From contig CP168944.1 of assembly GCA_041871065.1 (NCBI GenBank), forward strand, positions 1 to 15,904: a stretch of 15,904 nucleotides of DNA, given 5' to 3'. Both the position numbers and the translations under genes were made by a program. The stretch is from Weissella confusa (GTDB taxonomy: Bacteria > Bacillota > Bacilli > Lactobacillales > Lactobacillaceae). Shown here in pieces: positions 505 through 15,892 of this stretch (positions are counted from its first letter, which is position 1; each line of letters starts with the position of its first letter). The notes under the pieces are model-generated. The model was given only the letters and a program-made list of their open reading frames with translations. It ran no database searches and was not told the origin of the DNA.

Positions 505-2700
505 ATGAGGAATAACAAACAACATTCGTCGCATAGTCATCATAATAACGGCAACATGGATCACTCAAAACACGACCATAATGAAATGGATCACAGCAAG
601 ATGAATCATAGTGCGATGGATCACAGTGAAATAGATCATGGCGCAATGGAAGGGCATGCCCACCACCATCACGGCGACATGGATCACTCAAAACACGACC
701 ATAATGAAATGAAACATAGTCAGATGGATCACAGTGAAATGGATCATGGCGCAATGGGAGGGCATGCCCACCACCATCACGGTAGCTTTAAGGATATTTT
801 CTTGAAGTCACTCCCATTAGGAATTGCAATCTTACTCATTACTCCTTTGATGGGTATTCAGTTGCCTTTCCAAATTATCTTTCCTTATGCAGACGTTGTA
901 GCAGCTGTATTGGCAACAATTCTATACATTTTTGGCGGAAAACCATTCCTCATGGGTGCGAAAGATGAGTTTAATTCAAAAGTTCCAGGCATGATGTCCT
1001 TGATTACTTTGGGAATAACGGTTTCTTATGCCTATAGTGTTTACGCAGTGGCCGCTCGATATGTGACCGGAGAACCTGTCATGGACTTCTTCTTTGAGTT
1101 TACAACGTTAATTTTAATCATGTTATTAGGACACTGGATTGAAATGAAGGCATTGGGTGAAGCAGGGAACGCGCAAAAAGCATTGGCTGAGTTGGTGCCG
1201 AAAGATACTCATGTTGTTTTAGAAGACGATTCGATTGAGACTCGTCCAGTTGCTGACTTGCAAGTAGGTGATTTGATTCGTGTTCAAGCCGGAGAAAATG
1301 TTCCAGCAGATGGAACGATCCAGCGTGGCGAATCACGTGTAAACGAAGCGCTTGTGACTGGGGAATCGAAACCAATTGAAAAAAATCCCGGAGATGAGGT
1401 CATCGGTGGATCAACCAATGGTGACGGAGTCCTCTATGTGGAAATAAAGCAGACAGGCGATAAGTCCTTCATTTCTCAGGTTCAGACATTAATCAGTCAA
1501 GCTCAAAGACAACCTTCTCGAGCAGAAAATCTTGCACAAAAAGTTGCAGGATGGCTCTTTTATATTGCGGTTATTGCAGCTCTTATTGCCCTTGTCATAT
1601 GGATGGTTATAGCTGATGTACCAACGGCAGTTATTTTTACAGTCACCACATTAGTTATTGCTTGTCCGCATGCCCTGGGTCTGGCTATTCCATTGGTGAC
1701 TGCTCGTAGTACCAGCTTAGGGGCCAGTCGGGGATTATTAGTGAAAGACCGGGATGCTTTGGAGTTGACTACAAACGCAGATGTTATGGTTTTAGATAAA
1801 ACTGGAACTTTAACAACTGGTGAGTTTAAAGTATTAGATGTTGAACTCTTTAATGATAAATATACGAAAGATGAAATCGTTGCCTTATTGTCAGGTATCG
1901 AAGGTGGATCTAGTCACCCTATCGCTCGGTCAATTATTAGTTACGCAGAACAGCAAGGGATACGTCCAGTAAGTTTTGATTCGATTGATGTTATGTCTGG
2001 CGCTGGTGTAGAAGGTCAAGCTAACGGACATCGTTATCAATTAATCAGTCAAAAAGCATATGGACGTAATCTGGATATGGATATTCCAAAAGGAGCAACC
2101 ATCAGTGTCTTAGTAGAAAACGACGAAGCAATCGGTGCTGTAGCTTTAGGAGATGAATTAAAACCGACAAGTAAAGACTTAATACAAGCCCTTAAAAAGA
2201 ACAAAATTCAGCCGATTATGGCAACGGGGGACAATGAAAAAGCGGCTCAAGGAGCTGCAGAAATTTTAGGTATTGATTATCTAGCTAATCAATCTCCTCA
2301 AGACAAATATGAGTTAGTTGAAAAACTTAAAGCAGAAGGAAAGAAAGTTATCATGGTCGGTGACGGGGTCAACGATGCACCTTCTCTTGCATTAGCAGAC
2401 GTTGGTATAGCTATTGGTGCTGGAACTCAAGTAGCATTGGATTCAGCCGATATCATCTTGACACAGTCAGACCCTGGCGACATTGCATCCTTTATCGAGT
2501 TGGCTCAGAAGACCACACGTAAGATGAAAGAAAATCTTGTTTGGGGAGCAGGGTATAACTTTATTGCGATCCCAATAGCTGCAGGAATACTAGCACCAAT
2601 TGGCATAACATTAAGTCCAGCAGTCGCTGCCGTCTTGATGTCACTTTCGACTGTAATTGTTGCTATCAATGCTATGACATTGAAATTAGAGCCAAAATAA
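505..2700 (+). CDS. copB: CopB-type copper-translocating P1B ATPase
   Basis: A membrane pump of 731 aa that exports copper at the cost of ATP. Residues 1-92 form a cytosolic tail with about 27 His and many Met in MDHS/HHHH repeats, in place of an HMA domain. The P-type ATPase core follows: actuator TGES at 285-288, the transmembrane metal site CPH at 387-389, the phosphorylation motif DKTGTLT with Asp431, the P1B HP pair at 471-472, and GDGVND at 619-624. CPH together with a His-rich tail is the signature of the CopB/P1B-3 group (Enterococcus CopB, TcrB), as opposed to the CPC motif of CopA. The ATG at 505 is fixed by AGGAGG at 491-496. Length is normal for the family. It lies downstream of the HMA gene and would be controlled by CopY. 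Paired stretches in the His-rich region show that it grew by internal duplication. Confidence 0.96.
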   Translation: MRNNKQHSSHSHHNNGNMDHSKHDHNEMDHSKMNHSAMDHSEIDHGAMEGHAHHHHGDMDHSKHDHNEMKHSQMDHSEMDHGAMGGHAHHHHGSFKDIFLKSLPLGIAILLITPLMGIQLPFQIIFPYADVVAAVLATILYIFGGKPFLMGAKDEFNSKVPGMMSLITLGITVSYAYSVYAVAARYVTGEPVMDFFFEFTTLILIMLLGHWIEMKALGEAGNAQKALAELVPKDTHVVLEDDSIETRPVADLQVGDLIRVQAGENVPADGTIQRGESRVNEALVTGESKPIEKNPGDEVIGGSTNGDGVLYVEIKQTGDKSFISQVQTLISQAQRQPSRAENLAQKVAGWLFYIAVIAALIALVIWMVIADVPTAVIFTVTTLVIACPHALGLAIPLVTARSTSLGASRGLLVKDRDALELTTNADVMVLDKTGTLTTGEFKVLDVELFNDKYTKDEIVALLSGIEGGSSHPIARSIISYAEQQGIRPVSFDSIDVMSGAGVEGQANGHRYQLISQKAYGRNLDMDIPKGATISVLVENDEAIGAVALGDELKPTSKDLIQALKKNKIQPIMATGDNEKAAQGAAEILGIDYLANQSPQDKYELVEKLKAEGKKVIMVGDGVNDAPSLALADVGIAIGAGTQVALDSADIILTQSDPGDIASFIELAQKTTRKMKENLVWGAGYNFIAIPIAAGILAPIGITLSPAVAAVLMSLSTVIVAINAMTLKLEPK

Positions 2701-2766
2701 ACAGTTATTTTGCACATGAAATAATTGAATAACCTTATCGTTTAAAAATACAATAGTTTCACAGGA

Positions 2767-2809
2767 AAGGAAGAGATGAAATAATTTAAAAAATCATCTC
2801 TCCCTTTTT
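2767..2809 (+). terminator. Rho-independent terminator after copB
   Basis: An 8-bp perfect stem (AGAGATGA / TCATCTCT), extended by GG/CC across one mismatch, has an A/T-rich loop and is followed by TTTTT at 2805-2809. It lies about 70 bp after the copB stop and should end the cop transcript. Confidence 0.75.
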
Positions 2810-3063
2810 GCTCATAAGTCAATAAATTGGACTATTTTTATTCAGTTCCTTAGGCAACATTTGAGATACGATTACGATTATAAAAATTGATATACCAACC
2901 AATGGCTGCTTGGAAGACTGACATATTAGCCTCGATATCATCGAATAACTAAATACAGAAAAATACAATAAATATTATCAAACTAGGGACTATACTAGAA
3001 AACATCAGTACATTCCTTAACTCAGGGTCTATAATTACATAATCGCCCCTCGAAAAGACTATT
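2810..3063. other. Gene-free spacer around an IS remnant
   Basis: Between the copB terminator and the recombinase there is no intact gene. The stretch holds a transposase tail (separate entry) and A/T-rich sequence. Minus-strand reading frames here have no ribosome binding site or recognisable product. Confidence 0.6.
2850..2942 (-). pseudogene. C-terminal remnant of an IS transposase (IS3-like)
   Basis: Read on the minus strand, this stretch encodes about 30 codons ending in a TAA at 2852-2850, including FQAAIGWYINFYNRNRISN. The pattern of an aromatic-rich helix followed by YN-x-x-R-I is what is seen near the C-terminus of IS3-family OrfB integrase-type transposases. The frame is closed by a stop codon just upstream, so only the tail survives. 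The family assignment is tentative because the decisive DDE residues are missing. Confidence 0.45.
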
Positions 3064-3112
3064 AAAACAGCCCCCATTATCTGACTAGTAGATAATGGGG
3101 GCTGTTTTTTTG
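3064..3112. terminator. Strong bidirectional terminator before the recombinase
   Basis: A perfect inverted repeat of about 19 bp (3064-3082 against 3090-3108) has core CAGCCCCCATTATCT and a 7-nt loop. It is followed by a run of seven T on the + strand and preceded by AAAA, so it can work in both directions. It insulates the recombinase from the cop module. Confidence 0.85.
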
Positions 3113-3214
3113 TTAAGTGATATAATAAACCATAAAAGAAGTTTAGAAATACGGTCCTGGTCATCAATAAATAAACAATTTAATTATTTAATTTCAGAAA
3201 GGTATATTTGAATC

Positions 3215-3805
3215 ATGGCGCAACAAATTGTCCTACCCATCAAAGACTCCAACGTTTTAAAGATGGTACAAGATACACTTCTCGATAGTTTCCGTGCTGG
3301 TCGCCGAAATTACACAGTTTTTCAAGTTGGTAAGGCCACGCTACTACGTGTGAGTGATGTCATGACATTGAAAAAAGCAGATGTCTATAATCCAGACGGC
3401 TCTGTCAAAAATACAGCCTTTATTCATGATAAAAAGACTGGTAAAGCAAACACGTTATATTTAAAGCCTGTTCAGCAAGACTTGTTGCAATATCATGATT
3501 GGCTGGTCCAAGAAAATATCAATTCTGAGTGGTTATTCCCCTCGACAGCCCATCATGATTGCCATATCACCGAGAAACAGTTTTATAAAGTGATGGCGCG
3601 TGTTGGTGATCTACTAGGTATCAACTATTTAGGCACGCACACTATGCGTAAAACAGGTGCTTATCGCGTCTATACACAATCAAACTACAACATTGGCTTA
3701 GTCATGCATTTATTGAATCACTCAAGTGAAGCCATGACACTGACTTATCTTGGGTTAGACCAAGCTAGTCGTGAAACGATGTTAGATCAAATTGATTTTG
3801 GTTAA
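3215..3805 (+). CDS. Small tyrosine recombinase / integrase
   Basis: A site-specific recombinase of 196 aa that consists almost only of the catalytic domain; the N-terminal core-binding domain of larger integrases is absent. The full catalytic set can be placed: Arg45 (in LLRVSDVMTL), Lys73 or Lys74 on the beta-hairpin (HDKKTGK), His142-x-x-Arg145 (THTMRK), His169 (LLNHSS) and the nucleophile Tyr178 (LTYLGL). The protein is therefore likely active. The start ATG has only a weak ribosome binding site (AGAAAGG, 12 nt away). Its last part, including the stop codon, recurs in damaged form at 5302-5427 and 9415-9505, so this 3' end marks cassette borders. It is followed directly by an IS5-type fragment. 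Plasmid-borne recombinases of this size may resolve multimers or shuffle cassettes, but the target site is unknown. Confidence 0.88.
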   Translation: MAQQIVLPIKDSNVLKMVQDTLLDSFRAGRRNYTVFQVGKATLLRVSDVMTLKKADVYNPDGSVKNTAFIHDKKTGKANTLYLKPVQQDLLQYHDWLVQENINSEWLFPSTAHHDCHITEKQFYKVMARVGDLLGINYLGTHTMRKTGAYRVYTQSNYNIGLVMHLLNHSSEAMTLTYLGLDQASRETMLDQIDFG

Positions 3806-4039
3806 CCTATAAAAAATTTTGCTAATGAGATTAGCAGTTTAACGTCAGCCAAGGTAATCGTCGTTAAAAGAAATGAGTTACACCAATTTTCGGTTATCCC
3901 CCAACGGTGGCTCATTGAACGTTCATTTAGTTGGTTGGGAAATTATCGCCGTTTATGGCGTAACTGTGAGCGTAAGCTCAACACTAGTCTCATGATGGTT
4001 TCGTTAGCCTTTATCAGACTACTTCTTAAAAGATACTAA
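3806..4039 (+). pseudogene. C-terminal remnant of an IS5-family transposase
   Basis: The frame opens immediately after the recombinase stop codon and runs for about 77 codons to TAA at 4037-4039. It contains QRWLIERSFSWLGNYRRLWR followed by a Glu, then SLMMVSLAFIRLLLKRY. The W-x-x-E-R-x-F-x-W-L...R-R-L...E block is the C-terminal catalytic region of IS5-family (IS427/IS1031-like) DDE transposases. The first two thirds of the gene are missing, so it is inactive. The junction with the recombinase stop codon is abrupt. Confidence 0.8.
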
Positions 4040-4199
4040 ACAGCTTCTTAAAGACCTTCATAAAAAATAAGTAGGTTTCCGTTATATTCTTTATAAAAGT
4101 GTTTAGCAGTTGGGAGTCGTTGACAATTTAAAAATTTGTCTGCAGTTTCTTTTCTTTTAGTCTAAAATAGAGGTTAATAACTAACAGGGGAATTACTAA
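4040..4199 (+). promoter_or_regulatory. Upstream region of corA with a possible promoter
   Basis: An exact TTGACA lies at 4120-4125 and a TAAAAT at 4163-4168, but they are too far apart (37 bp) to act as a pair. No well-spaced -10 partner is obvious. The corA ribosome binding site is AGGGG at 4186-4190. Confidence 0.3.
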
Positions 4200-5111
4200 A
4201 TGATCAAACCCGAAAAGACAATCAATGGAACCAAATGGATTGAAACGATTCAAATCAATGCCGAAGAACGGGCAACCCTCGAAGATCAGTATGGCATCGA
4301 TGAAGATATTATTGAGTACGTCACTGATAATGATGAAAGTACTAATTATGTTTATGATATCAATGAGGACGACCAATTATTCATCTTTCTGGCGCCGTAT
4401 GCCCTCGACAAAGATGCGCTGAGATACATTACCCAGCCATTTGGCATGTTGCTCCATAAGGGCGTTTTATTCACGTTTAATCAAAGCGACATACCTGAAG
4501 TCAACACGGCACTTTACTCGGCATTGGATAATCCCGAGGTTAAGAGCGTCGATGCATTTATTCTGGAAACACTGTTTACAGTTGTTGACAGCTTTATCCC
4601 AATTTCTCGCGCCATTACCAAGAAACGCAACTATTTGGATAAAATGTTGAACCAGAAGACGAAGAACAGTGACTTGGTTTCACTTTCATATCTTCAACAG
4701 ACGTTGACCTTTTTGTCCAGCGCGGTCCAAACCAATCTCAGTGAACTCGCTCGTTTGCCAAAGACCCATTTTGGTGTCGGTGCTGACCAAGATAAAATTG
4801 ATTTATTCGAAGACGTGCAAATTGAAGGAGAACAGGTCCAACGGATGTTTGAGATTGAAACCCAAGTCGTTGACCGAATCGATCATACCTTCAACAGCCT
4901 TGCTAATAACAACCTGAACGATACAATGAAATTTTTGACAATTTGGTCACTGACCATGGCTGTGCCAACGATCATTACCGGATTCTATGGGATGAACGTG
5001 AAGAAACTCCCGTTAGCCGGGATGCAATATGCTTGGATGCTGACTTTGGGGATTTCTGTCGCCTTGATTGTGGCGATGCTGATTATGCTGAAGGTCTGGC
5101 GGAAGATGTGA
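4200..5111 (+). CDS. corA: CorA-family divalent cation transporter
   Basis: A membrane channel of 303 aa for Mg2+ and possibly Co2+ or Ni2+ uptake. The N-terminal two thirds form the acidic cytosolic funnel domain with long helices. The C-terminus has two transmembrane helices, and the first ends in the diagnostic YGMN motif at 263-266 (GFYGMNVKKLP). The second helix runs from about 276 to 298 and is followed by a short basic tail (KVWRKM). Length and motif placement are normal. The ATG has AGGGG about 9 nt upstream. The gene stands alone between an IS5 fragment and a decayed recombinase end, so it looks like an independent cassette. Why a plasmid carries it is not shown by the sequence; restoring divalent cation balance under metal stress is a guess. 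Confidence 0.93.
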   Translation: MIKPEKTINGTKWIETIQINAEERATLEDQYGIDEDIIEYVTDNDESTNYVYDINEDDQLFIFLAPYALDKDALRYITQPFGMLLHKGVLFTFNQSDIPEVNTALYSALDNPEVKSVDAFILETLFTVVDSFIPISRAITKKRNYLDKMLNQKTKNSDLVSLSYLQQTLTFLSSAVQTNLSELARLPKTHFGVGADQDKIDLFEDVQIEGEQVQRMFEIETQVVDRIDHTFNSLANNNLNDTMKFLTIWSLTMAVPTIITGFYGMNVKKLPLAGMQYAWMLTLGISVALIVAMLIMLKVWRKM

Positions 5112-5283: not shown

Positions 5284-5301
5284 AACCCGGGTCTTGTCAC
5301 A

Positions 5302-5427
5302 TGTTGGTGATCTATTAGGTATCAACTATGCTAGGCACACACACCATGCGTAAAACAGGCGCTTACTTATCTTGGCCTGTATCAAGCTAGTCGTGAGACT
5401 ATGTTAGATCAAATTGATTTTGGTTAA
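5302..5427 (+). pseudogene. Decayed copy of the recombinase 3' end (copy B)
   Basis: This repeats the end of the recombinase gene, from the VGDLLGINY region to the stop codon, at high identity. It has a 1-nt insertion and an internal deletion of about 80 bp (equivalent to about 3663-3742 of the intact gene) between short CTTA repeats. It still contains THTMRK coding sequence and ends in the same LDQIDFG plus stop. Nothing upstream of this part is present. Confidence 0.88.
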
Positions 5428-5527
5428 ACTCATGCCCTAACTAGACTTAAGCGATACTTTAGTTACTTATCAAGCTAAAATTTGTATTAAATATATAAGA
5501 GATAAGAGTTGATCATATGCAATTAGT

Positions 5528-5707
5528 TTACAGGGCAGAAGAAAATCTGTCCGTAAATCTAGCATAAGAGCAGTTATTAAAGAGCCTGGAAACTACAGGT
5601 GAATTCAGAAACATACTAAGCAGCACGTTGCCACCATCCGAGGTAATTGGTGCCCCATTGTCTGAAACTGCAACTAAAGGGTTGCTAGGTAATACTTTTT
5701 GAGTCAT
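5528..5707 (-). pseudogene. N-terminal stub of an IS1380-like transposase
   Basis: The minus strand encodes 59 aa starting MTQKVLPSNPLVAVSDNGAP, then ITSDGGNVLLSMFLNSP, and ends in FTDRFSSAL plus TAA. The Thr-Ser-Asp-Gly-Gly segment followed by a Leu-rich helix resembles the N-terminus of IS1380-family transposases (LTSDGG-type). Everything carrying the catalytic residues is absent. The last 14 codons and the stop recur at 15213-15257, so the truncated form itself has been copied. The family assignment is by motif only. Confidence 0.55.
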
Positions 5708-5807
5708 AATTTTAGACGCTCCAATTTTTGAGTATTTGGTTTGTTTTTCACTAGCAAAATATCATAACAAAGAGCTCCTATGGTTTTCACCCAACGGGTG
5801 AAAGCGC

Positions 5808-5852
5808 AAAACCCGCTGAAACGGTATTAACTTGCTGTTTCAGCGGGTTTTT
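5808..5852. terminator. Terminator hairpin after the regulator gene
   Basis: A 15-bp perfect inverted repeat, AAAACCCGCTGAAAC (5808-5822) against GTTTCAGCGGGTTTT (5837-5851), has a 14-nt loop and flanking T/A runs. It lies 40 bp past the stop codon of the minus-strand Crp/FNR regulator gene and can end that operon; on the + strand it is also a good terminator. Confidence 0.8.
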
Positions 5853-5893
5853 GTTTGTCTTGATGAATAATCTGGGTTTAAGTATAAATCAAC

Positions 5894-6586
5894 TTAACTT
5901 GATACAAATAATAATTCATCTAAATCAAATATCTCAACACATTTTTGGGTATGCCGTTTAATTAGACCTCTCTCTTCCAATGATGAGAACTTACGGCTTA
6001 TTGTTTCTGGGGTTGTCCCCAGGTAAGTAGCCAAATCTTTTTTTGACATGGGTAAAGTCACATAAGTATGGTTTTTTTCATCTTCAACATTTTCTGATAG
6101 AAAATCAATAATTCGAGCTTCAACAGGTTCAATACTGACTTGCACAGTTTGTTTTTCTGATAACTGTAGCCGTTTTGTAATATCCGATAATATTCGTCGC
6201 ATGATTTCTGGATAGCGATCTAAATATTGATCTAAATCCTTTTTATGAATCCTACAAATACTTGTTTCTGATATTGCTTCAGCATAATTCGAATGATAAC
6301 CTTCAGTCTGTAAAACAGCAAATTCCCCCATAAAATCACCCGGATGTAGGATACGTATGGTTTGCTCACGACCAGACTCACTTAGGCTATAAATACGTAC
6401 ACGTCCATTGTTTATGATATATAATGTGTCATCTTTATCACCAAACCTAAATAATAGCTCATTCTTTACGTATTGTACTTCATTCGCTGATTGAGCAATT
6501 AGATGCATTTGTTCATCATTGAGATGATTGAAAATCGGCACTAAACGTATACAATCTACATGACTATGATGATTATGGTATGCCAT
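5894..6586 (-). CDS. Crp/FNR-family (FLP-like) redox or metal regulator
   Basis: A transcription factor of 230 aa. Residues 18-130 form a cyclic-nucleotide-binding-type beta barrel (GDKDDTLYIINNGRV; HPGDFMGEF at 81-89), a long dimerisation helix follows, and a winged helix-turn-helix at about 179-212 carries the recognition segment TTPETISRKFSSLEERGLI. Glu194, Ser197 and Arg198 match the FNR recognition pattern that reads TTGAT half-sites. Cys12 and Cys111 are spaced almost like the redox-active pair Cys5/Cys102 of Lactobacillus casei FLP; there is no FNR iron-sulphur Cys cluster. The N-terminus HNHHSH could bind metal. The start ATG has AGGAG 9 nt upstream. It is the last gene of an operon with the HMA gene and dps, and that operon's promoter carries a perfect FNR box, so autoregulation is likely. 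Confidence 0.88.
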   Translation of the reverse strand: MAYHNHHSHVDCIRLVPIFNHLNDEQMHLIAQSANEVQYVKNELLFRFGDKDDTLYIINNGRVRIYSLSESGREQTIRILHPGDFMGEFAVLQTEGYHSNYAEAISETSICRIHKKDLDQYLDRYPEIMRRILSDITKRLQLSEKQTVQVSIEPVEARIIDFLSENVEDEKNHTYVTLPMSKKDLATYLGTTPETISRKFSSLEERGLIKRHTQKCVEIFDLDELLFVSS

Positions 6587-6602
6587 ACCGTTTGTCTCCT
6601 AA

Positions 6603-7154
6603 TTAATCGTTGTCTATATAGTCATCGTCTTCTAAGGCATCCTTATTAATAAATGCTTGAAGTTGCCAAATATTTACGTCTAAATAAGCTTTATAACTAA
6701 TGAGTGAATCTTCCAAAGCATCATTTCCTTCTTCTTGTGCTAAGCGAATTGCACGAATAGTAAATTCACGATTAGATCTAAAATCTTCTACTATCTGTAG
6801 GACCATCTCATCAGCAGTGTAATATTTTTCCGAAGAATCTTCAGAAATCGTTGTAAATTCTTGGAATTCAGTAGTTGTTGATGCCGGCTTAAATCCTGAA
6901 GCTAGTAAACGTTCTGCAATTTTATCAAACCATGCCTCATTCTCGTTATATAAATTTTCAAAAACATTATGCAATGCATAGAAATTTTTGCCTTTTACAT
7001 ACCAATGATATTGATGCAACTTTACATGTAATGTATGAATATTAGCAAGTATATGATCTGTAACAGCTGCAGAATTAATCTTAGTATGATGAATGTGTTC
7101 TTTATATGCTTGTTCGGCGGCTAATTTTTCTTGCCTTTCATTTACCGTTGTCAT
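6603..7154 (-). CDS. dps: Dps-family ferritin-like DNA-protection protein
   Basis: Forms a spherical dodecamer that oxidises Fe(II) with peroxide and stores the iron, which prevents Fenton damage. The 183-aa protein has the typical four-helix layout. The inter-subunit ferroxidase ligands align well: His50 (QYHWYVKG), His62 (ALHNVFENLY), Asp77 and Glu81 (FDKIAER), close to E. coli Dps positions 51, 63, 78 and 82. The ATG at 7154 is preferred over a GTG at 7163, because AAGGAAGG stands 8 nt before the ATG but abuts the GTG. The ATG lies one base past the stop of the HMA gene, so translation is probably coupled. Its place between a metal chaperone and an FNR-like regulator suggests a role in iron or redox stress. 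The acidic C-terminus (EDDDYIDND) is an extension. Confidence 0.93.
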   Translation of the reverse strand: MTTVNERQEKLAAEQAYKEHIHHTKINSAAVTDHILANIHTLHVKLHQYHWYVKGKNFYALHNVFENLYNENEAWFDKIAERLLASGFKPASTTTEFQEFTTISEDSSEKYYTADEMVLQIVEDFRSNREFTIRAIRLAQEEGNDALEDSLISYKAYLDVNIWQLQAFINKDALEDDDYIDND

Positions 7155-7155
7155 T

Positions 7156-7392
7156 TTATGCACCTTCCTTTACTTTTGAACTAATTACTGGATATCCTAA
7201 GTCTTCAATTGCTTTTTCAATTGTATTCAAATTGACCTGATTTTCATCAAAATCCACTTTTACCTTACTCGCATTGAAAAGTACTTTTACAGAATCTTTT
7301 TTTACACCAGCAGTCTGTTTTAAACCACGTTCGATTTTTTGTAAACATGATGGACAAGTTAATGTTTCTAATTTTAATGTTGCTTTAGTCAT
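7156..7392 (-). CDS. CopZ-like HMA metallochaperone
   Basis: A 78-aa cytosolic protein consisting of one HMA domain with the metal-binding loop TLTCPSC (Cys13, Cys16). The fold is completed by the typical ending of HMA domains, AIEDLGYPV. The frame extends 21 codons further upstream to a TTG, but the ATG at 7392 is chosen: AGGAG lies 8 nt before it, and the longer form would run through the promoter. The ATPase gene upstream has no N-terminal HMA domain, so this protein may supply the missing domain in trans. It heads the HMA-dps-regulator operon. Metal specificity cannot be read from the loop alone; Cu(I), Zn(II) and Cd(II) are all possible. Confidence 0.88.
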   Translation of the reverse strand: MTKATLKLETLTCPSCLQKIERGLKQTAGVKKDSVKVLFNASKVKVDFDENQVNLNTIEKAIEDLGYPVISSKVKEGA

Positions 7393-7413
7393 ATCTATCG
7401 CTCCTTTAAATAA

Positions 7414-7455
7414 ATTATATAGGCCATTCTTTTTAAGATACTTGATATAGATCAA
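7414..7455 (-). promoter_or_regulatory. FNR/FLP-controlled promoter of the HMA-dps-regulator operon
   Basis: An exact FNR consensus, TTGAT-N4-ATCAA (TTGATATAGATCAA, 7442-7455; palindromic, so the same consensus on both strands), lies directly next to the ATPase stop codon. Read on the minus strand, a perfect TATAAT at 7419-7414 follows, with no -35 hexamer. If transcription starts about 7 nt beyond the -10, near 7407, the box is centred at about -41.5, the classical class II activation position of FNR/CRP proteins. Confidence 0.82.
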
Positions 7456-9306
7456 TTATCTTAATTGATAACCTCTTAATCTCATTGCATTTAAAATAAC
7501 TACTAAAATACTGGCCTCATGAACCAACATCCCAATTGACATAGACATCCATTCACTAAATATTAAACTAGCCAATAGTATTATCACGACGCCAACAGCA
7601 ATTAGAATATTTTGTCGCATATTCGCATATGTTACTTTTGCTAGGCCTAAAGCATGAGGAAGGCGGTTAAAGTTAGAATTCATTAAAACAATATCTGAAC
7701 TTTCAATTGCGACATCTGTTCCATTCCCCATAGCTATACCCACCTCTGCAGTAGCCAGAGAGGGACTGTCATTAACGCCGTCACCGATAAAAACAACTAT
7801 TTCACCTGAGTCCTGTCGTCTTTTTAGAAATGCTTGTTTGTCCTCTGGTAGCATATCACCATGGGCTTCCGTTAAACCTAGTTCCTTTTTAACTGAATTA
7901 ACTGTACCTTGGTTATCACCTGATAATACAATGAGATTTTTAATACCAAGTGATTTTAATTTTTGTAAGTCCTGCTTAACACCTGGTCGAACTTTGTCGC
8001 GGATACCCATTAACATGATTAACTTATGATCAACTGCCGTTAATACAATTGAATTACCGGTTGTTTCTAAATTATTCAATTTTTTAAGAACATCATCAGA
8101 TAGCGGTATACTTTCTTGTTTCATTAAGGTTTTATTTCCTACTGAAACAACGTGCCCATCTACGTGAGCAATTACGCCCCCACCTTTTACAACCTGTGTA
8201 TTTTCTATAGGCCTTACTTTATATTGTGCTAATTTATTTACAATAGCGACAGCTAATGGATGATCAGACTCACTTTCAACCGAAAGCAATAGAGATAAAT
8301 CCTCCTCCTGATTATTTCCATAATAAATAATATCGCTCACTTCAGGCTTTCCTTCAGTTAAGGTACCTGTTTTATCGAATAACACTGTATCTGCATTGGC
8401 AAAATGACTAATCACTTCAGAACCTTTAAATAAAATACCATTCTTTGCGCCATTTCCTATCCCCGCAACATTTGAAACAGGTACACCAATTACCAAGGCT
8501 CCTGGGCAACCAAGTACTAATACGGTAATCGCAAGTTCTGTATCTTTGGTTAATACCCAAACCAACAGCCCGATTGTAAGTACTGCAGGTGTATACCAGC
8601 GAGAAAACTGGTCAATGAATCGTTCTGCTTCTGATTTAGAATCCTGTGCTTCTTCTACCAACTCAATAATTTTTCCAAATGTAGAATCTTCCCCTACTCT
8701 GTCAGCCACTATTTGAATAGTACCGTTGTCCATAATAGTACCGGCAAATACTTCATCGTCTTTTTCTTTCTTTAAAGGTAAAGATTCACCTGTGATATTA
8801 GCCTCATTTACATATCCTTTTCCAGTAGTTACCCTACCATCTACGGGAATCTTGGCACCAGTCTTTACTAGGAGAATATCCCCTTCTTCTACTTCATCAA
8901 TATCTACTTCTGCAAATTGTCCCCCTGTCAATTGCTTAAAAGCAGTTTCTGGAGCCATTTCCGTCAACTCTTTAATAGCTGATCGTGTTTGGTTAAGTGT
9001 TCGTTGTTCTAAATATGATCCAAACAAAAATAAAAAAGTAACAATTGCTGATTCTTCATAATTTTGAATAAAGAGAGCACCAATGACCGCTATCGTTACT
9101 AAAACATCAATACTTACTACTTTTACTTTCATAGCCTGATAAGCCTGTAAAGAAATGGGGGTAACGCCTAATATCGAAGCTATAATAAAAGCACTATTAG
9201 AAATTGTTGTATTGGCAAAAATAAAGTGTGCGATTAGTGCTAAAGCAATGAGTAAGCCACTGATACTAGTAATTTTATTTTTATGTTTAAGAATATTATG
9301 TTGCAT
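7456..9306 (-). CDS. P1B-type heavy-metal ATPase with an atypical CPG motif
   Basis: A membrane metal-export pump of 616 aa. It has no N-terminal HMA domain; about four transmembrane helices come first (residues 12-100). Actuator TGES is at 172-175, the membrane metal site reads CPG at 267-269 (LGCPGALVIGVP), the phosphorylated Asp311 is in DKTGTLT, the HP pair is at 349-350 and GDGVND at 508-513. The last helices contain His596-Glu-Ala-Ser599, which recalls the HEGGT signature of P1B-4 pumps (Co, Fe, Zn; for example PfeT) and differs from the Asp of CadA-type pumps. CPC, CPH and SPC are the well-known motifs, and CPG is unusual. The ATG at 9306 has GGGAG 7 nt upstream. It precedes the HMA-dps-regulator operon and has its own FNR-box promoter. 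Dps and the HE motif suggest Fe(II) or a similar ion, but databases may label such proteins Cd or Cu ATPases. Confidence 0.9.
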   Translation of the reverse strand: MQHNILKHKNKITSISGLLIALALIAHFIFANTTISNSAFIIASILGVTPISLQAYQAMKVKVVSIDVLVTIAVIGALFIQNYEESAIVTFLFLFGSYLEQRTLNQTRSAIKELTEMAPETAFKQLTGGQFAEVDIDEVEEGDILLVKTGAKIPVDGRVTTGKGYVNEANITGESLPLKKEKDDEVFAGTIMDNGTIQIVADRVGEDSTFGKIIELVEEAQDSKSEAERFIDQFSRWYTPAVLTIGLLVWVLTKDTELAITVLVLGCPGALVIGVPVSNVAGIGNGAKNGILFKGSEVISHFANADTVLFDKTGTLTEGKPEVSDIIYYGNNQEEDLSLLLSVESESDHPLAVAIVNKLAQYKVRPIENTQVVKGGGVIAHVDGHVVSVGNKTLMKQESIPLSDDVLKKLNNLETTGNSIVLTAVDHKLIMLMGIRDKVRPGVKQDLQKLKSLGIKNLIVLSGDNQGTVNSVKKELGLTEAHGDMLPEDKQAFLKRRQDSGEIVVFIGDGVNDSPSLATAEVGIAMGNGTDVAIESSDIVLMNSNFNRLPHALGLAKVTYANMRQNILIAVGVVIILLASLIFSEWMSMSIGMLVHEASILVVILNAMRLRGYQLR

Positions 9307-9323
9307 ATGATTTCTCCCTTAAT

Positions 9324-9338
9324 TTTAGTTCAACTAAA
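9324..9338. promoter_or_regulatory. Palindrome at the predicted start site of the ATPase gene
   Basis: TTTAGTT-C-AACTAAA is a perfect 7+1+7 palindrome. It touches the predicted -10 of the ATPase promoter and covers the predicted transcription start, so it is placed like a repressor operator. It does not match a cop box, Zur box or PerR box that I recognise. Confidence 0.4.
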
Positions 9339-9379
9339 GTGTATTAGCTTTTGGGAGATATAAACTTGACGTCCATCAA
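9338..9379 (-). promoter_or_regulatory. FNR/FLP-controlled promoter of the ATPase gene
   Basis: TTGACGTCCATCAA (9366-9379) matches the FNR consensus except for one base, and its flanks extend the palindrome by three bases on each side. On the minus strand, TACACT at 9343-9338 (4 of 6 -10 bases) stands at exactly the same distance as the TATAAT does from the box of the HMA operon. The predicted activator position is again about -41.5. An overlapping TAATAC is an alternative -10. Confidence 0.68.
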
Positions 9380-9414
9380 GTTTATGAAATAGTTCTAAAT
9401 AAGTAAAAATATTA

Positions 9415-9505
9415 TAATATTGGCTTAGTCATGCACTTATTGAATCATTCGAGTGAGGCTATGACACTGGCTTATCTTGGGTTAGATCAAATTGATCTTG
9501 GGTAA
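9415..9505 (+). pseudogene. Decayed copy of the recombinase 3' end (copy C)
   Basis: This repeats the last part of the recombinase gene from the IGLVMHLLNHSSEAM region to the stop codon. A clean 27-bp in-frame deletion, flanked by the short repeat TTAGA(C/T)CAA, removes nine codons before the final QIDLG. The catalytic His and Tyr codons are present but all upstream parts are absent. It marks the right border of the ATPase-Dps-regulator cassette. Confidence 0.86.
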
Positions 9506-9574
9506 TAACGCCAACTAATCTCCCTAAATTAGCCCGTATTTGTTCATTTTGGCACCACCATGGAGGTATTTTTA

Positions 9575-9754
9575 ATGACTAGGATTACTAAGGCACAATT
9601 AGACAACATCATTACAGTGTCAGATAAACAAGGCCCGGATACAGCTAGCCAGACTTATTTTTCAGATGCCTTTGATGCAACCATGGATAATACTGGTGAT
9701 ACTGACTTACTGGGTTATCTATTACTGGATCATTATTTTGGTGATGAATCATGA
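9575..9754 (+). CDS. Small acidic protein, first gene of a three-gene cassette
   Basis: A 59-aa protein that I do not recognise. It starts MTRITKAQLDNIITVSD and ends in a short hydrophobic segment followed by acidic residues (LLGYLLLDHYFGDES). It has no signal peptide and no transmembrane helix long enough to span a membrane. The start at 9575 is preferred over the ATG at 9560, because GGAGG (9562-9566) lies 8 nt upstream and overlaps the earlier ATG. Its stop codon overlaps the next ATG in an ATGA, so translation is coupled. It follows 70 bp after recombinase copy C. Confidence 0.7.
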   Translation: MTRITKAQLDNIITVSDKQGPDTASQTYFSDAFDATMDNTGDTDLLGYLLLDHYFGDES

Positions 9755-10442: not shown

Positions 10443-10779
10443 TGGTTGGCGTTAGCCTTCTGATACAAGGAAAAACCAAGGATGAAATCCTTGGCAAACT
10501 ACTATTGACAGGTGTCAAGAGTGTAAGTGCGCATTGCCCTCATTTCATTCGGTTATGATCCTTGTAAATAATGGCTTGTACATTGAACCTTTTTAAGACT
10601 TAATGCCATTATTTTGTGATCGATGGCCATTTAATAAAATGATTAGTCATTACTGTTTTTAGTCATCCGATTTTCAGAATAGACTAGTAATTTGATTGTT
10701 AATTGATACGTTAAACGCGAATATAGATAAAATGTTCTTGGTTAGTAAGGCATTAACTTTAATCTGTGCAAAAAAACAC

Positions 10780-10844
10780 CTATAACGAATAAAACGCCAT
10801 GAAAAGCTCTTTGTAAGCCTTTTATGGCGTTTTATTCGTTATAG
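10780..10844. repeat. Long perfect inverted repeat (21 bp arms)
   Basis: Positions 10780-10800 and 10824-10844 are perfect reverse complements. Inside, AAAAG and CTTTT extend the stem past a one-base bulge. The arms contain CGAATAAAACGCCAT and its complement. There is an A run on the left (10769-10776) but no strong T run on the right, so on the minus strand it could serve as a terminator. Confidence 0.8.
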
Positions 10845-10883
10845 ACAATATTTTATATGGATGATTCTTAATTGCGCTCAAAA

Positions 10884-10930: not shown

Positions 10931-11081
10931 TTTTATTACTCAACCACTTCAGAATTACCTTATCTCTTCCTTTATTACCTAAGTAACTCCCGAAGTCCTC
11001 CTTATTGTAAGAATGCCAAATCAACTTTTTGACCACGGTACTCCCAGATACATATGTCAAACCACACACAATGCCAAAATA

Positions 11082-15210: not shown

Positions 15211-15275
15211 CTGCTCTTATGCTAGATTTACGGACAGATTTTCTTCTGCCTTGTAAATTAATAGCATAGGAGCAT
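15211..15275 (+). pseudogene. Second copy of the end of the IS1380-like stub
   Basis: Positions 15211-15253 match the complement of 5531-5573 with one difference, in inverted orientation to the first copy. It encodes CSYARFTDRFSSAL plus the same stop (15255-15257). The shared sequence goes on past the stop (TGTAAA-TTAATAGCATA). GCTCTTATGC and GCATAGGAGC at the two ends nearly form an inverted repeat. Confidence 0.7.
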
Positions 15276-15357
15276 TTTTTAATTAGTATTGGGTAAAGAT
15301 AGGTAAAGATAGGAAAACAAAGGCAATAATAGCCGGTTACATTTATTTAAAAAAGAC

Positions 15358-15436: not shown

Positions 15437-15892
15437 ATGAGTACAATAGTAGTTAGCCCTCATATCACCGATGCTGAATGGGAAGTTATGCGTGTAGTCT
15501 GGGCGAATGGTCGAGTGACTAGTAAAGAAATCATCTCCATATTGAAAGAAAAAATGGACTGGAAACAAGCCACTATCAAAACGCTCTTAGGTCGACTGGT
15601 TGAAAAAGGCGTACTAAATACAGAGCAAGAAGGTAGAAAATTTATTTATACTACCAATATTGAAGAGAAAGAAGCCGTAGGAAATTATACAGACGATATT
15701 TTCAACCGTATTTGTCGAAAGAATGTCGGGAATGTAGTAGGGAGTGTCATTGAAGATCATGTCTTAAGCTTCGATGATATCCAGCGACTAGAAGAAATAT
15801 TAGAGATGAAAAAAGCTTTCGCAGTAGAAGAAGTGGATTGTCAGTGTACAGAAGGGCAATGCGAATGCCATTTACATCATCATGGAGAATAA
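15437..15892 (+). CDS. copY: CopY/TcrY copper-responsive repressor
   Basis: A 151-aa repressor of the BlaI/MecI/CopY family that leaves DNA when Cu(I) replaces its bound zinc. The N-terminal winged helix-turn-helix (about 7-75: DAEWEVMRVVWANGRVTSKE, ATIKTLLGRLVEKGVL) binds cop boxes. The C-terminus carries the complete metal motif Cys135-x-Cys137-x4-Cys142-x-Cys144 (CQCTEGQCEC), followed by a His-rich tail (HLHHHGE). The ATG has AAGGAGGG about 8 nt upstream. The gene ends 12 nt before the end of the window. In enterococcal and lactobacillar operons copY is followed by the chaperone and pump genes, here found at 1-2700, so the window ends probably join. It should repress itself and the whole cop operon. 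Confidence 0.95.
   Translation: MSTIVVSPHITDAEWEVMRVVWANGRVTSKEIISILKEKMDWKQATIKTLLGRLVEKGVLNTEQEGRKFIYTTNIEEKEAVGNYTDDIFNRICRKNVGNVVGSVIEDHVLSFDDIQRLEEILEMKKAFAVEEVDCQCTEGQCECHLHHHGE

Follow-up and report, generated by a model that had tools for sequence, protein, structure and literature searches.

A likely plasmid-borne metal-ATPase and Dps cassette of Weissella confusa with two predicted class II FNR/FLP-type promoters and its own putative activator

In class II FNR promoters the regulator box lies at about -41.5, and those of Escherichia coli FNR combine a TTGAT-type box at about this position with the absence of a -35 element, as does the locus described here. Operons of a related kind are known from Lactococcus lactis: work attributed to Gostick in 1999 and to Scott in 2000 reportedly describes the flpA and flpB operons, of the order orfX-orfY-flp, which are said to bring together, like the present cassette, an FNR-like regulator with HMA and Dps genes. 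The FLP of Lactobacillus casei is a two-cysteine FNR-like protein with predicted FNR-type recognition, as is the regulator studied here, and a His-rich tail is not known for it. In excerpts of PMC5039431, which cites L. casei FLP, FNR-like proteins of Gram-positive bacteria are described as often having two cysteines and not four, cluster binding by non-cysteine residues is mentioned for Lactococcus FlpA, and the FLP precedents are linked to redox or oxygen. Among metal pumps, the PIB-4 exporters PmtA, PfeT and FrvA appear in excerpts of PMC7012047 as P1B-type iron exporters controlled by PerR, Fur or other regulators and not by an FNR-type protein, and PMC7012047 and PMC8880997 give HEGST as a motif of the PIB-4 iron exporters. 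A literature search that had most subscription journals outside its reach returned no title or abstract describing the regulon reported below or a metal ATPase with a CPG motif.

The stretch of DNA analyzed here, hereafter the window, comprises the 15,904 nucleotides of contig C3 (1-15904), one of three contigs in a 2.35-Mb Weissella confusa genome. This contig is likely a plasmid, because its region 5700-9500 is 97.7-99.0% identical to Weissella and Leuconostoc plasmids among the best 39 matches listed. Four genes follow one another on its minus strand, in the order ATPase, HMA, dps and Crp/Fnr-family regulator. The first (7456..9306) encodes a heavy-metal P1B-type ATPase of 616 aa that contains the motifs CPG (residue 267) and HEAS (residue 596); the second (7156..7392) a 78-aa HMA protein with the motif TCPSC. 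The HMA frame can also be read from a TTG at 7455, but we regard the ATG at 7392 as the likelier start because the longer frame overlaps the promoter described below and an annotated relative starts at the corresponding ATG. The third gene (6603..7154) specifies a 183-aa Dps/ferritin-like protein that exceeds the cut-off of PF00210 and has the ferritin/Dps structure 1qgh as its closest solved match (E 1.7e-29). It contains what we take to be, by eye, the His, Asp and Glu positions of a ferroxidase site. Its ferritin-like domain places it with solved Dps proteins, and it may have ferroxidase activity or bind DNA. The fourth gene (5894..6586) encodes the FLP-type regulator of 230 aa, distinguished by an E-x-x-S-R helix, the cysteines C12 and C111 and a His-rich N-terminal tail. 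A terminator-like stem-loop 3' of it (5808..5851) is listed for the plus strand, with only four T after the stem on the minus strand.

A counterpart in gene content is a Lactococcus plasmid (L023) with ATPase, HMA, Dps and Crp/Fnr genes and with box-promoter composites before its ATPase and HMA genes, as in our cassette; its Dps matches L. lactis DpsA (1zs3) with 393 bits over 181 residues. It is nevertheless distant from the cassette, with identities of 54% for the ATPase, 53% for HMA, 36% for the regulator and 28% for Dps. On account of this gene set, the DpsA match and the reported orfX-orfY-flp work, we assign the cassette to the known kind of FLP-type operons. It is a variant of that kind by virtue of its closed plasmid regulon with a CPG pump, the strict promoter rule followed across Bacilli and the His tail. 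A Listeria/Enterococcus plasmid version (L017, L018, L021) shares all four kinds of gene, every one of them preceded by its own box with a -10 at gap 22, but has them in the order dps, regulator, HMA, ATPase and with four promoters instead of two; its ATPase is 68% and its regulator 51-53% identical to those of the cassette. An excerpt of PMC5663981 tabulates the genes of pLM58, covering gene content and not regulation. On the Listeria plasmid L017 genes for a cupin, an ABC ATPase and fetB (iron export) lie at 2438-4358, upstream of dps and the regulator gene and without a box of their own. In related plasmids (L005, at 840-1325, and other relatives listed) a VIT1/CCC1 transporter gene adjoins the regulator, with no composite before it in L005; the ORF list of the window has no VIT1/CCC1 frame by the cassette.

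An earlier note on this DNA had reported two FNR/FLP boxes, before the HMA-dps-regulator operon (HMA ATG at 7392) and before the ATPase gene (start 9306), and we recovered both, read on the minus strand towards these genes, at the positions and with the mismatches it gave. Box 1, TTGATATAGATCAA (7442-7455, 0 mismatches; listed as TTGATCTATATCAA on the minus strand), starts directly 3' of the ATPase stop codon. Box 2, TTGACGTCCATCAA (9366-9379; listed as TTGATGGACGTCAA on the minus strand), has one mismatch to TTGATNNNNATCAA and none to the relaxed pattern TTGAYNNNNRTCAA. As that note had also maintained, each box precedes its -10 by the same distance, which is exactly 22 nt. A -35 is absent: the hexamers 17 nt upstream of the -10s are AGTATC and AGTTTA, unlike TTGACA. 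The two -10 hexamers themselves differ, being TATAAT (7414..7419) after box 1 and TACACT (9338..9343) after box 2. From a 14-nt box, the 22-nt gap and a -10 at -12 to -7, arithmetic predicts a box centre at -41.5; the gap and the missing -35 hexamer are those of a class II FNR promoter. Because box 1 directly follows the ATPase stop and no minus-strand terminator-like site is listed at that point, read-through from the ATPase unit into the downstream operon is possible. Ordinary sigma-70 promoters in 5700-9600 are as frequent as expected (18 against 18.4), and the -10 hexamers of the cassette belong to none of them. As to other regulators, a PerR-type box, TTATAATNATTATAA, has 7 matches with at most 3 mismatches in the window against 3.94 expected, and the one found upstream of box 2, at 9403-9417, has 3 mismatches; the sole match to a copper-repressor-type box, KACANNTGTA, is at 11049, away from the cassette.

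Taken alone the boxes carry little weight, with four matches at one mismatch or fewer in the window where 1.48 would be expected, a number that shuffled sequence reaches in 15 of 200 cases; exact TTGATNNNNATCAA has 25 sites genome-wide, 24 of them outside the window contig. It is the composite TTGAYNNNNRTCAA-N22-TANNNT that is rare: its two sites in the 2.35-Mb genome, C3:7414-7455 and C3:9338-9379, both belong to the window, and its reversed control is found once. A third relaxed palindrome in the window, TTGACAGGTGTCAA at 10505, has no -10 at 22-nt spacing. The 24 exact TTGATNNNNATCAA sites on chromosome C1, where the reversed control pattern has one, likewise lack a -10 at this distance; they may be in use or reflect an effect of coding sequence.

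Homologous ATPase loci were assembled from named contigs (21 loci), annotated plasmids and genome sets of the order and class, with at most 30 loci per search drawn from the genome matches and with copies of the window's own locus (L007, L011) left out of the counts. At E 1e-120 the ATPase had matches in 174 of the 395 order genomes and 67 of the 398 class genomes, the class list including CPC-type pumps. The earlier note had proposed a search for the box before homologous operons, and its outcome bears the proposal out: in 66 of 68 loci with distinct ATPases the composite lies no more than 1.5 kb away to one side or the other, and none has the reversed pattern. When the ATPases are clustered at 90%, 75% and 60% identity the counts become 30/32, 15/16 and 9/9. 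By contrast, the composite was found in 0/20 control loci of CPC-type relatives from the same class, and the box in 1/20, the sequence examined in these controls being confined to the 2 kb on the upstream side of the match. Relatives are not independent, and we therefore give weight to the counts by cluster and to those loci in which ATPase identity is just 44-60%. The two misses are a Lactiplantibacillus plasmid (L022), in which the ATPase gene lies 41 nt from the locus end and a single box about 4 kb away, common to divergent HMA and regulator genes, has a -10 at gap 22 on both sides, and a locus (L037) in which the single box is not followed by a -10 at gap 22 and no regulator was found. 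Among the 22 loci longer than 7 kb, a relative of the regulator occurs in 21, Dps in 21 and HMA in all 22.

Within 200 nt, an exact box lies in 48 of 65 distinct ATPase upstreams and 59 of 80 distinct HMA upstreams, against a mean of about 0.1 regions in mononucleotide shuffles and none for the reversed pattern; it is absent from that interval in 17/65 and 21/80, respectively, and some of the box-less ATPase genes lie after an HMA gene having an exact box. Given the exact box, TANNNT follows at gap 22 in 48/48 ATPase and 55/59 HMA upstreams. Exact boxes before dps (4/24) and before the regulator gene (6/50) are few, as expected for genes inside an operon. These counts omit hits starting past residue 12, ATPase hits below 33% identity, starts 40 nt or less from a locus end, N-containing upstreams and repeats of an identical 120-nt upstream, which reduces 78 ATPase rows to 65 and 103 HMA rows to 80.

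At the level of whole genomes, 198 from the order were compared: 45 contain the strict composite and 4 the reversed pattern, and an ATPase relative is present in 43 of the 45 as against 39 of the 153 others, a comparison uncorrected for kinship. Among the 43 the weakest ATPase match is at 2e-177; the other two have no match at E 1e-120. Conversely, the strict composite is absent from 39 of 82 ATPase-bearing genomes of the order, a designation that extends to E 1e-120 and can admit some CPC-type pumps. Of 24 genomes picked for holding the ATPase, 22 have the strict pattern and none the reversed one. The core claim of the earlier note, that two class II FNR/FLP-type sites define one regulon, is thus upheld by 66/68 loci, 0/20 CPC-type controls and 43/45 strict-promoter genomes, and we regard the architecture and the regulon as strongly supported. 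Of 89 distinct composites, many in loci chosen for holding one, 71 stand before an HMA, ATPase, dps or regulator gene (61 of them HMA or ATPase), 14 precede other ORFs, several of which are probably spurious, and 4 precede none. The other targets include genes for RIC-like and Ohr proteins and an unassigned, secreted-looking protein of 228 aa (the site at 1501 in L111 and L129; L105, L116, L118 and L091); of the RIC-like genes three are short and one is full length, all below the curated cut-off, and there is one Ohr gene.

The pump itself departs from the usual P1B types. All 68 ATPase homologs have CPG where such pumps usually have CPC or SPC, a feature that the earlier note had not remarked upon, and all 68 have HE-x-S near the C-terminus, followed by I or V in the rows printed; this set drops proteins below 43% identity (including L040-L045), those below 85% length and identical ones. 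They differ from the CPC-type (Cu or Zn/Cd) pumps, in that 20/20 control relatives have CPC, and from PmtA, PfeT and FrvA in having CPG and not SPC and in having an HE-x-S that is related to HEGST, without its final T, and not the same. The general heavy-metal P1B model TIGR01525 scores 550 bits (cut-off 346), and the solved copper (340), zinc (322) and 'cadmium' (316 bits) pumps match about evenly (3rfu, 4umv, 7qbz). The protein is a heavy-metal P1B-ATPase of uncertain subclass, and it is from its family that metal export would follow. The Dps gene, the VIT1/CCC1 and fetB neighbors in relatives, and the RIC-like and Ohr genes behind the same promoter elsewhere lead us to favor iron, the cargo that PmtA, PfeT and FrvA have in the excerpts of PMC7012047, as the exported metal; this is a tentative preference, held at slightly less than even confidence. 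That zinc, cadmium or copper is the cargo has a comparable, nearly even claim: the HMA protein scores best with CopZ models, albeit below cut-off, the family models rate the ATPase as Cd- and Cu-type alike, and one cited title ties Lactococcus FNR-like proteins to zinc uptake. Against a metal other than iron speak, besides the contextual genes named for iron (Dps in the operon itself, VIT1/CCC1 by the cassette in relatives, fetB by the Listeria version, and RIC-like co-targets), the presence of a copper-type CPH ATPase on the same plasmid and the lack of CPC in the cassette ATPase.

The regulator combines a cNMP-binding domain (PF00027) with a Crp-type helix-turn-helix (PF13545), both over their cut-offs, and its best solved matches are FNR-type and Crp-family regulators, among them 5cvr, the FNR of Aliivibrio. 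The FNR-type recognition helix noticed earlier is present, the protein reading T191-T-P-E194-T-I-S197-R198; 54 of 55 regulator homologs preserve E-x-x-S-R and the remaining one has E-x-x-A-R. This set excludes identical proteins and those below 85% length, some of which are cut by a locus end. C12 and C111 are present in 55/55, and C111 aligns with a cysteine of solved FNR-type regulators. The resulting pair, one N-terminal cysteine and one equivalent to an inner FNR cysteine, is the layout of FLP-type regulators. FNR proper has four cysteines for its [4Fe-4S] cluster, whereas this protein has C12, C111 and a non-conserved C216 only, so that the oxygen sensor of E. coli FNR, with its four cysteines against two conserved ones here, cannot be assumed. 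A further feature, which the earlier note did not mention, is that the up to 12 residues before C12 are 33% His, versus 2.7% in the rest of the protein; at least two His occur in this tail in 46/55 proteins, 19/27 clusters at 90% and 8/14 at 60% identity.

Of the earlier interpretation as a redox-controlled, two-site class II regulon, the regulon stands, with redox control as a candidate. The two invariant cysteines are consistent with an FLP-type thiol or cluster switch, and we hold a redox switch of this sort to be evenly balanced; the His tail would also suit cluster binding by non-cysteine residues. The same tail is compatible with direct metal sensing, in which binding of Fe(II), Zn(II) or Cu(I) by tail, C12 and C111, in place of an oxygen or redox signal, would turn the regulator into an activator of the cassette. 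This is a possibility that we rate clearly below even. The His enrichment and the preponderance of metal-handling genes behind the distinct composites (61/89 HMA or ATPase, partly owing to the choice of loci) point in its direction; against it, the tail varies (one or no His in 9/55 regulators) while the two cysteines are invariant, the RIC-like and Ohr co-targets point to nitrosative or oxidative stress, and the FLP precedents in the excerpts of PMC5039431 are redox- or oxygen-linked.

The best reading, in our view, is a mobile, self-regulated, plasmid-borne cassette for metal export and Dps, controlled by a class II activator of the FLP type. The FNR-like protein, as a dimer, would bind the two TTGAT-type boxes, which at about -41.5 take over the role of a -35 element, and recruit RNA polymerase to the ATPase and HMA-dps-regulator promoters, and the location of its gene within the latter operon would bring about autoactivation. 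A redox-linked signal acting through C12 and C111, either as a disulfide or at a cluster or metal site to which the His-rich tail contributes ligands, would switch DNA binding. The ATPase would export a transition metal, with Fe(II) the likeliest candidate; the HMA protein would pass the metal on or buffer it, and Dps would oxidize and store iron. We consider the regulatory core of this proposal, class II activation by the encoded regulator, to be probable. Position alone leaves the sign of control unfixed, and the boxes might instead be operators, with the bound regulator keeping polymerase out at -41.5 and a signal lifting the block; the lack of a -35-like hexamer in both promoters and the exact 22-nt spacing across loci, which fits an activator needing contact with polymerase, make such repression improbable. 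Still less probable is use of the boxes by another, chromosomally encoded Crp/Fnr-family protein of the host: one further match exceeds the cut-off (C1:707538, 30 bits) and two more fall below it, but the strict composite is nowhere on the chromosome and the regulator gene travels with the boxes. Chance palindromes, conceivable inasmuch as the boxes alone are not rare in window or genome, are already contradicted, and we reject them given the fixed spacing, the genome-wide rarity and the conservation across loci and genomes.

These findings turn two boxes into a promoter rule testable in dozens of species, and offer a small regulon for asking what FLP-type proteins sense. They also present a transferable circuit by which pump, store and activator enter food-fermenting and other Bacilli together. 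A broader proposal, speculative and on balance unlikely, is that such regulators form a widespread mobile class of metal-sensing FNR-like activators, in which the tail, C12 and C111 constitute a metal or Fe-S site reading iron (or another metal) and redox, and which through strictly placed class II boxes switch on a new CPG subgroup of P1B-ATPases along with the Dps and HMA genes and, where a genome has them under this promoter, RIC-like and Ohr genes. Were this true, an iron-efflux and Fe-S-repair regulon would exist that has no need for Fur or PerR and is transferred as a single cassette. Should the CPG ion site prove to transport iron or some other ion, the metal ATPases would gain a further substrate class.

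The remainder of the contig presents several further features. An intact 196-aa integrase frame (3215-3805) is accompanied by two truncated remnants, one (5295-5430) between a CorA-type gene and the cassette and the other (9413-9490) just past box 2, suggesting module exchange by recombination. A Penicillinase_R/CopY-type repressor gene (15437-15892), an HMA protein (1-366) and the CPH-type copper ATPase (505-2700), which has a His/Met-rich N-tail, may form one copper operon across the join if the contig is circular. Internal repeats at 531-755 of the window fall within the His/Met-rich N-terminal part of that ATPase gene. An inverted repeat of 71 nt (89%) has its arms, 5503-5573 and 15211-15281, 9.6 kb apart, and an imperfect 57-nt hairpin with a 7-nt loop lies at 10752-10872.
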